DNA from: Gammaproteobacteria bacterium
GTDB lineage: Bacteria > Pseudomonadota > Gammaproteobacteria > Burkholderiales > Thiobacillaceae
Direction: 5' to 3'
DNA length: 21,385 bases
Assembly (NCBI GenBank): GCA_018820745.1
Contig: JAHJNP010000068.1
Span: 1 to 21,385 of the forward strand
Shown: positions 9,055 through 10,940 of the stretch, piece after piece
Layout of the letters: each line of letters begins with the position of its first letter
Position numbering within the stretch: the stretch's first letter is position 1
Position numbers and translations under genes: made by a program
The notes under the pieces: model-generated
What the model was told of the DNA's origin: nothing
What the model saw: the letters and a program-made list of their open reading frames with translations, nothing else
Database searches by the model: none

Positions 9055-9309
9055 TTGGGGGATTCACACACCCTTGCGTGATGACGTGGCCAGAATGCAA
9101 AGGGCGCAAATCGGCCAGAAGCGGTCATCTGGGCATTTCTCCCATAGCAGACGTTCTATCCGGATTATCATTGCGCATGCAAACAGATAGCCTCTACAAG
9201 CCGACCATGAATCAAGCCGCTTTACCACAACAGCAGGTTCTACGAATTTCAATAATTCAGACCGGCGGAGCTGGTGAATACCTTTTAACCGGCGCGCTAG
9301 GGAGTGAGG
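9055..9309. other. Non-coding stretch at left edge of the cassette island
   Basis: No supported gene. Base composition falls after about 9170. The short frames across it (such as 9064-9252 minus) have no ribosome site or family. No clean attC or attI core could be assigned here, so the left boundary of the island is undefined. Confidence 0.5.
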
Positions 9310-9858
9310 ATGATTGAATGGAGCCAGATGATCGAGAATGCAGCCCCCGCTGCACTATCAACCTTCGTGGTTTCCGCACTAATGTTGTTCCTAAACCACC
9401 GCGCGAGCCGACGCTTGGAGAGATATAAGACCGAACTCGAACTTCAACTTGCCAACGACCGGGCGCGCCTAGAGGAAAGTATTCTTCGGCGCTCTGCGTG
9501 GTATGAGAAGCGGTCTGCGGCCCTCGTCGAACTTTACGGCGCCTTCTACGCGTATCTGGACTTTCTTCGCCGCCACTTGTACTTCGACCAGAGAGCGGAC
9601 GATGTCACGCCGATGCACGAGTTCCGAAGCGCGTGTGATTCCCTCTCCGTGTTTCTTACGGACGATCTCAAAGCGAGAATGGACCAGTACACTGGCGAAC
9701 TCCTGCAGTTCTGGAACTGGGCTGTGCAGAATCGGGAAACCGACCAGGAGGAGATTCGCCGCCGTCTCGACTACGAGATTCCCGGCTACCTTGATCGCCT
9801 GCGCGTCGATATCGGCCGATACCTTGATGATGTGCCTAGTACAGAGAGCAAGGAGTAA
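9310..9858 (+). CDS. Cassette-borne membrane-anchored protein of unknown function
   Basis: 182 residues from ATG 9310, with GGAG five bases upstream; a GTG at 9304 is in frame but coincides with that ribosome site. Residues about 11-30 are one hydrophobic segment (AALSTFVVSALMLFLNHRAS). A charged, probably coiled-coil helix follows (RRLERYKTELELQLANDRAR, about 34-53), then a soluble helical domain rich in Arg, Tyr and acids. I recognise no named family. GC and codon use are visibly lower than in flanking core genes. Its stop codon sits at the start of an attC-like site, the standard layout of an integron gene cassette. Confidence 0.75.
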   Translation: MIEWSQMIENAAPAALSTFVVSALMLFLNHRASRRLERYKTELELQLANDRARLEESILRRSAWYEKRSAALVELYGAFYAYLDFLRRHLYFDQRADDVTPMHEFRSACDSLSVFLTDDLKARMDQYTGELLQFWNWAVQNRETDQEEIRRRLDYEIPGYLDRLRVDIGRYLDDVPSTESKE

Positions 9859-9913
9859 TTGTGCGTACGCTGCGCGATAAAGCCGCGCAGCGCCGGTTAG
9901 CTCTACGTTATGT
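9856..9913 (+). other. attC-like recombination site 1
   Basis: The segment begins at the stop codon of the preceding gene. It contains a perfect 9-bp stem (CGCTGCGCG 9868-9876 with CGCGCAGCG 9884-9892) and ends GGTTAGCTCTACGTTATGT, with a core GTTATGT at 9907-9913 close to the GTTRRRY consensus. The left half is shorter than the right, so the outer arm is imperfect. The central part matches attC-like site 2 almost base for base. Confidence 0.65.
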
Positions 9914-9934
9914 TTCTCGGAAAGGGAGCCGCTG

Positions 9935-10531
9935 ATGGAGAAAGTACGCGCTAGGCACAGTGGGCACAAGAACATCTATGTGCACAACGATCTCTCCAAT
10001 GCCGCACATCATTTCATGGAGGTAATCAGTGCGAAGCTTGCCTCAGGCGACCATAAGGGAATCACTTTCGATTACATGGCATGTCTGATCTCGTTGGCGT
10101 TCACCTTCGAGGCAAGAATCAACTTCCTTGGTCACAAGCGGGTCAAAGGTTGGAAGGAGCGTCAGCCATTCAATGACAAGATCGAAGAGGTCCTAGCTAC
10201 TTTAAAGGTCATACCGGATTTTCAGGTGCGGCCGTACAGCTCCATTGAAATGCTCAAGACGTTTAGAGACACCCTTGCACATGGGAAGCCAGTTGAAGTT
10301 CAGTTCGACGAAGAAGTTGTGCTTCCTGCAGATGCAATAGATCGGCGAATCGATCTCGACGGAGAGTGGGCAGCCTATTGCGAACACGAGAACGTGTTCA
10401 ATGCACATGCCGACATTGATGCAATATGGAAAGAGCTTCTGCAACTGGGGAGCCTCGACTTATACGAAACAATCACACACGGCTCCAGTGGGCTTACGTT
10501 CATTGAAACATTTGTGGATGCCAAAACATAA
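9935..10531 (+). CDS. Cassette-borne soluble protein of unknown function
   Basis: 198 residues from ATG 9935, with GGGAG six bases upstream. No signal peptide or membrane helix is seen. The sequence is predicted largely helical, with two notable segments: FDYMACLISLAFTFEARINF (about 46-65) and MLKTFRDTLAHGKPVEVQFD, where 'FRDTLAHGKP' recalls HEPN-like or abortive-infection helical proteins, though the RxxxxH-type motif is not proven. Codon use is AT-richer than the neighbourhood. The gene lies between two attC-like sites, so cassette 2 would run from about 9908 to 10588. I recognise no family with confidence. Confidence 0.75.
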   Translation: MEKVRARHSGHKNIYVHNDLSNAAHHFMEVISAKLASGDHKGITFDYMACLISLAFTFEARINFLGHKRVKGWKERQPFNDKIEEVLATLKVIPDFQVRPYSSIEMLKTFRDTLAHGKPVEVQFDEEVVLPADAIDRRIDLDGEWAAYCEHENVFNAHADIDAIWKELLQLGSLDLYETITHGSSGLTFIETFVDAKT

Positions 10532-10594
10532 CACTTCGGTCAACACGGACCTTGCGCGAAAAGCCGCGCAGGCCGGTGAATTCAGATGTTGAAC
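10526..10594 (+). other. attC-like recombination site 2
   Basis: 69 bp overlapping the stop codon of the preceding gene. The left core is ACATAAC (10526-10532), near RYYYAAC, and the right core is GTTGAAC (10588-10594), an exact GTTRRRY. Inside, GGACCTTGCGCG and CGCGCAGGCC pair with two unpaired bases (T and A), like the extrahelical bases of attC hairpins. The size is within the normal attC range. It shares TGCGCGA-AAAGCCGCGCAG and CCGGT with site 1. Confidence 0.7.
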
Positions 10595-10723
10595 GTCCAC
10601 TTTCCGAATCGGCCAATTTCCGCTTAGGGTCGCTAACGGAAGATCGCGTCAACCAAAGCAGCACCGCATGGCACTCAGGAGGGCCGTCCGTGTTCTGTTC
10701 CTTGGGGACGGGCATGGGCACGA

Positions 10724-10751
10724 AAATCGCGGCGAGGACGCCGCTCCTACA
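10724..10751 (-). repeat. REP-like element, copy 1
   Basis: 28-bp unit, read on the minus strand as TGTAGGAGCGGCG followed by TCCTCGCCGCGATTT. It carries a GCGGCG/CGCCGC hairpin behind a conserved TGTAGGAG head, as in REP sequences of Pseudomonas and related bacteria. It matches copy 2 at 27 of 28 bases in inverted orientation. Confidence 0.8.
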
Positions 10752-10840
10752 GGCCTGCGCTGTTTTATCCGCCTGGGCGGAACCGTGCATTTTCACCCTC
10801 GGATAAGCACCGCCACCGGCGACGGGCCACCTGCCCCTCT

Positions 10841-10868
10841 TGTAGGAGCGGCGTCTTCGCCGCGATTT
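10841..10868 (+). repeat. REP-like element, copy 2
   Basis: TGTAGGAGCGGCG then TCTTCGCCGCGATTT; inner 6-bp stem with TCTT loop. It is inverted relative to copy 1, 89 bp away. The head-to-tail inverted arrangement matches a REPIN-type doublet. Confidence 0.8.
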
Positions 10869-10940
10869 ACGCGCCGCTGCAATCACCACGGCATCGGGCA
10901 GGGCCGGCCCGCACCTCCGTACGGAACAATTGACGCCCGA

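Follow-up and report, generated by a model that had tools for sequence, protein, structure and literature searches.

The window, that is, the whole stretch of 21,385 nucleotides analysed here, carries two cassette genes located between a gene for a LysR-type regulator on one side and a methyltransferase gene on the other. The original prediction had interpreted these two genes, each with a hairpin behind it, as an integron remnant (CALIN) at positions 9310..10594. Both genes and both hairpins with their shared centres (TGCGCGA, AAAGCCGCGCAG, and CCGGT) are present in the sequence, as are the terminal cores GTTATGT and GTTGAAC, and the GC content of the genes (0.556 for gene 1 and 0.486 for gene 2) is lower than that of the whole window (0.644). 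The proposed interval proved too narrow: the full unit spans 9112-10632 and is composed of a leader of ~177 nt, two cassettes, and a tail of ~45 nt (Table 1). The tail starts within the core of attC2, that is, the last attC core runs directly into the right end of the element, and both ends are imperfect inverted repeats of ~45 nt. What the remnant interpretation captured is a pair of cassettes without an adjacent integrase; what it missed is that the leader and the tail around them recur together.

Table 1. Features of the element in the window (positions count from the first letter of the window).
Feature	Position	Strand	Evidence or remark
Left terminal inverted repeat, CGGCCAGAAGCGGTCAT...GCAGACGTTC	9112..9158	+	Model R2, E 2.2e-9; resembles the ends of relatives in alignment A1
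Conserved leader	9112..9287	+	Recurs across the genus
attI-like site at the 3' end of the leader (GACC..GGTGAAT plus core)	9252..9290	+	Core decayed
Cassette gene 1, 182-184 aa	9310..9858	+	No family match above cut-off
attC1, decayed	9834..9913	+	Model R1, 11.7 bits, E 0.19
Cassette gene 2, 198 aa, probably HEPN-fold	9935..10531	+	Homologues, predicted structure
attC2	10526..10594	+	Model R1, 25.7 bits, E 3.5e-5 (match 10529-10591)
Tail and right terminal inverted repeat, ending ..CCGCTTAGGGTCG	10588..10632	+	Model R2, E 7.0e-10

attC sites, cassette genes, and genomic place

Because no Rfam family reached its cut-off in a scan of the window, a covariance model of the attC sites of the genus (model R1) was built from 21 Thiobacillus sequences, 18 of them from relatives and three from other contigs of the genome to which the window belongs, with none from the window itself. 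In its alignment, 88.6% of cells are paired and 75 cells are changed on both sides, versus 27.8 in shuffles. Run over the window with filters off, R1 ranked attC2 first and attC1 second, the next match reaching 10.1 bits. Two significant covariance hits had been anticipated, and this was borne out for attC2 but not for attC1, which is decayed (Table 1). The claimed overlap between attC and stop codon was likewise recovered at attC2, whose R'' box (ACATAAC) overlaps the stop codon of gene 2 and whose R' box is GTTGAAC. Both boxes of attC1 (R'' GCCTAGT and R' GTTATGT) are decayed, and an attC on contig C191 of the same genome matches its 3' end in 47/47 nt.

A search of this genome for intI and for further sites, which had been suggested as a check, returned both. 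A frameshifted intI pseudogene, belonging to a type referred to below as IntI-B, is located on contig C209, and 12 more attC matches (E <= 0.014) were identified in what is a 75%-complete draft, three of the 12 being part of the training set of R1. None of the IntI matches in the genome lies on the window's contig, and no tblastn match was obtained within the window, so that the reported lack of a visible integrase holds locally but not for the genome as a whole. Downstream of the element, window positions 10700-10880 contain a palindromic intergenic repeat of the GGAGCGGCGTC..CGCCGCGA type, which has many matches across the genus and is unrelated to the element.

Neither cassette gene matched a family above cut-off in Pfam, PADLOC, or NCBIfam. 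Gene 1 has 42 homologues, the two best of which match at 98-99% (carrying no source label, as the window's own) and the next at 89%; its product has a single N-terminal hydrophobic stretch as read by eye. Gene 2, with 106 homologues, encodes the motif R111-x4-H116, in which R111 is invariant and H116 is present in at least 90% of 35 rows (34 homologues and the window's protein). Its AlphaFold2 model (pLDDT 91.9) resembles HEPN structures, which make up most of the best structural matches (Z < 13, the Foldseek result alone being not significant), and gene 2 therefore probably encodes a protein with a HEPN fold. We take the motif R-x4-6-H to be a mark of HEPN RNases; proteins of this fold frequently act as RNases within toxin-antitoxin or phage-defence systems. 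Cassette proteins with RN..HG-like motifs, which could be HEPN-like as judged by eye, were also seen at loci L043, L045, L049, and L182.

The segment had been expected to be absent from related strains, and this was confirmed: at the place between the LysR and methyltransferase genes, 20/20 relatives lack the element, save for 13 nt like its left end in genome G009. In at least 10 of 56 genomes the two flanking genes are immediate neighbours (<= 30 bp between matches), and other relatives have different genes in this place, resembling by eye NsrR and Hmp, UppP, or Dcm and Vsr. In G009 the place opens with CGGCCAGAAGCGG after a similar flank and continues with other genes. Locus L148 of G009 (338-2924), which starts with CGGCCAGAAGCGG, contains genes resembling a Vsr endonuclease and a DNA cytosine methyltransferase (by eye).

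Recurrence of leader and tail across Thiobacillus

A DNA search with the element region returned matches in 37 of 60 genomes. The matches listed are of four kinds (leader, attC1, attC2 with tail, and the palindromic repeat), and among them there is no leader outside the genus. Within the genus, 38 full or partial leader matches were identified in 19 of 56 genomes, including the window's own; 25 of these cover at least 150 of 179 nt and the rest are partial. In genomes of named species, an exact leader pattern matched nine stretches, in Thiobacillus, Hydrogenophilales or Betaproteobacteria bacterium genomes.

Leader and tail recur as a pair around other cassettes at different places. An alignment of 14 copies shows conserved ends with differing interiors and, mostly, differing flanks; similarity between loci breaks off at CGGCC on the left and at GGGTCG on the right. 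A cassette is common to only two of 14 elements as read by eye, and blastp among 12 of them recovered the same single cassette-sharing pair only. The elements are 0.7-3.3 kb in size with their cassettes inside. For 30 leader loci drawn from the 38 matches, a same-strand attC is present <= 1.5 kb downstream of the leader in 15, the window's included, and a same-strand tail in 14 (excluding the uncertain tail of L189); in five further leader loci the right end is located farther out. No IntI was detected by tblastn in 44 loci spanning 32 leader copies.

Elsewhere in the window's genome, contig C188 (L205, 5438-3806) contains a remnant with a truncated leader and part of a tail, and contig C84 (L302, 782-685) one with only an attC and a right end. 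Locus L303 of genome G002 (196-2859) has 2.9 kb between a leader scrap and a right end, with genes that resemble, by eye, those for a caspase-like protease and a nucleotide-binding partner. A reading frame in the leader (MNQAV..GE) was considered as a leader peptide and rejected: variability at codon positions 1-3 is 0.094, 0.131, and 0.112, so the third position is not the highest, and the frame is shifted in several copies.

The spread of the leader appears to be old, because the nearest neighbours among 21 compared copies are 78-91% identical and are rarely found in the same genome (the same-genome partner is the nearest neighbour for only one of the 13 copies having such a partner). Only one of the 21 is more diverged than the window's leader, whose nearest neighbour is 79% identical. 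Some places are shared between species (G019/G067 and G016/G060), left flanks are common to G002 and G021, and a few left flanks hold shared repeats. The place of G016's element is occupied, in locus L288 of genome G005 (217-2184), by another attC-bearing insert, which is oppositely oriented. No match was found in a plasmid collection searched for carriage of the element.

Alignment A1, made from the left and right ends of relatives (10 each), revealed that left and reversed right ends have CGRCCMRAAGCGG in common and, farther inward, GCAGACRTTC; the end motifs are CGGCCAGAAGCGG and CCGCTTTGGGTCG. By shuffling, an inverted repeat is supported at <= 26/1000 in eight of 12 elements, the other four being individually without a significant one, and for the window's element 10/1000 shuffles score as high (5/1000 in a separate run). 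The end model (R2) was run over the 56 genomes with strict filters and a limited number of candidates. Its strong matches are mostly elements of this family, and at least seven strong right ends are without a full leader; no transposase was seen inward of five such right ends and one weaker match in frames read by eye. A partial, by-eye reading recognised no parent transposon with the same ends, and the non-exhaustive R2 search recognised no stand-alone miniature element with both ends.

Target-site duplications of at least 4 nt were not found flanking 12 elements. The element is missing from the G029 site in 36 of 56 genomes, since the outer flanks lie within ~210 bp of each other there; insertions are layered at this site, with 665 bp of different sequence in G013. 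A joined-flank search with five candidates per genome gave no match crossing the flank junction by >10 nt among the matches listed, and neither it nor the G029 site yielded a precise empty site.

Relationship to IntI-B integrons

The attI of the main integrase type of the genus reads ..TTTAACGTTAGGC, that of an IntI-B example ..GACCCATGGGTCTCTATATTAACTGTTAGGC, and the 3' end of the leader ..GACCGACCGGTCTGGTGAATAACTGTTAGGC. IntI-B is 46-53% identical to the main type over most of its length. When the leader was compared with the IntI-B attI of the window's own genome with the core removed, 0/2000 shuffles were as good, and for a main-type attI the figure was 1709/2000; taken individually, three of five IntI-B attI sites show a weak likeness to it (129, 137, and 932 of 2000 shuffles). 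A pattern drawn from the leader and IntI-B attI was found only at leaders and IntI-B-type attI (in 1.48 Mb of overlapping loci), and some of the IntI-B-type sites with this pattern lack intI. The window's attI-like site, with the core TTTAACC where most aligned leader copies have GTTAGG, is too decayed for the shared pattern. That the leader could be the attI of the main integron was considered and rejected, as that attI differs and the leader is absent from 30 main-type intI loci, which gave just two tail-like matches of 17-19 nt.

The leader is present in six of eight genomes with a recognised IntI-B versus 13 of 48 others (Fisher p 0.014), a comparison in which some partial IntI matches are left untyped and drafts make up many of the genomes. 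Between IntI-B loci and the leader, the match is confined to the attI end (L033 and L313). After one match to the left end had already been noticed, a 17-nt matrix was run over the 320 nt that follow intI on its 3' side. A left end outside intI in the expected orientation was identified at five of nine IntI-B loci (control fractions 0 to 0.008) and at 0/13 main-type loci; the match at L308, which overlaps the end of intI, is excluded from the five. Four of the nine IntI-B loci, the window's own genome among them, are without a convincing left end, as is an attI-B array with a truncated intI in G005.

In genome G060, a left end is joined to an IntI-B promoter-attI region from which intI is missing. 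This left junction is identical in place to that of G016's element; the G060 contig ends shortly after, and the matching right flank and right end are found on a separate contig. The IntI-B integrons of G032 and G077, which have different surroundings, have a common right end of ~65 nt just past the last attC. Past a short stretch, these right ends are no longer like the element tail, and the end model gave no match at IntI-B loci.

Origin of the element and implications for CALINs

Because leader and tail recur together with different cargo and with an attI-like site of their own, membership in a dispersed family of carriers, without integrase and with inverted-repeat ends, describes the element better than the label of integron remnant. 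We consider it fairly probable that 9112-10632 is a worn, old copy of a dispersed, non-autonomous Thiobacillus carrier, derived from an IntI-B integron bounded by terminal inverted repeats and loaded with cassettes in trans. In the course of events proposed here, such an integron would have lost intI and kept attI, giving rise to the carrier family, and its intI-less derivatives would have been dispersed around genomes. Because IntI joins attC to attI, cassettes may be added and exchanged at the carrier's attI by an integrase acting from elsewhere, and the whole carrier, judging from its ends alone, might be moved by a transposase in trans. The case for a carrier is slightly reduced by the elements that share places between species and by the seven right ends without a full leader. 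The copy in the window is probably inert now, because its attI core, its attC1 core, and the IntI-B gene of its own genome are all broken.

In the usual explanation of CALINs (PMC9024848, PMC8618304, and PMC11389934), deletion or rearrangement has removed the integrase from part of a chromosomal integron, and no carrier takes part. The broken intI and scattered attC arrays of the window's own genome would agree with it, as would the places or flanks that different species have in common (places in G019/G067 and G016/G060, left flanks in G002/G021). It is nevertheless an unlikely origin for this element, given that leader and tail with matching ends are conserved at many places, and that the main integron has a different attI and its loci lack the leader. 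The window's element has attC-bearing cassettes without a nearby intI, as CALINs do, but the carrier differs from them by its own attI-like site and its conserved, dispersed ends. Two attC sites are the default for a CALIN in IntegronFinder 2 (PMC9024848); the window gives one significant site of two, at E 3.5e-5 for attC2 and E 0.19 for the decayed attC1. The survey in PMC9024848 reports CALINs to be about as numerous as complete integrons and interprets them as products of integron degradation.

The cassettes might instead have been trapped by two independent miniature elements in the style of IMU or TIME-COMP. Such structures are known for integron material (PMC13367494), and the short, gene-less ends of the element would suit them, but these ends do not represent two copies of a single element: the left one is ~177 nt with an attI-like site and the right one ~45 nt starting from an attC core, which makes a composite quite improbable. 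Gene-less inverted-repeat ends around integron material and the need for a transposase in trans are features that the carrier has in common with the Tn3-derived IMU and TIME-COMP. Unlike them, it is one element rather than two bounding copies and exists in many copies with different cassettes, and the 5-6 bp duplications that mark TIME-COMP transposition (PMC13367494) were not found at the 12 carrier elements compared. Off-target insertion of cassettes into chromosomal secondary sites (attG) by an integrase elsewhere, a published route named in PMC8618304 and in a title cited in PMC11389934, would fit the variable LysR-methyltransferase place with its other genes in relatives but is very hard to credit, since it would not surround each insert with the same ~177-nt leader and 45-nt tail.

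Other known systems resemble the carrier in part. Its short, dispersed, gene-less ends with inverted repeats are like those of a MITE, but it is 0.7-3.3 kb in size with cassettes, and neither a parent transposon, in a partial reading by eye, nor a target duplication of at least 4 nt was found for it. With mobile integrons, in which intI, attI, and cassettes lie within a transposon, it shares an attI-like site and cassettes within inverted repeats; it differs in that it is without intI and no transposition gene was seen. Compared with an integron, the window has an attI-like site, decayed, but without an adjoining intI. The IntI-B integrons of the genus may themselves be of the mobile-integron kind. 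Among open-licence papers, no title or abstract opening that was listed describes an attI element lacking an integrase and having inverted-repeat ends; as evidence of absence this is weak.

The carrier reading of the window suggests that some integron cassettes here ride tiny carriers rather than being leftovers of broken integrons. More tentatively, Thiobacillus could harbour doubly dependent elements, that is, gene-less carriers with terminal inverted repeats and attI but without intI, which a transposase from elsewhere would move and an integrase from elsewhere would fill, with cassettes spreading around the chromosome as separate small islands; this wider picture is a proposal that we hold possible rather than probable. 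If true, CALINs would in part be a kind of mobile element, beyond wreckage. A dispersed carrier with an attI-like site is a testable second route to CALINs that brings a landing site to new places, and it would help account for scattered islands of one or two cassettes. With the leader family, recombination in trans could also be studied at a natural attI that has no intI beside it.
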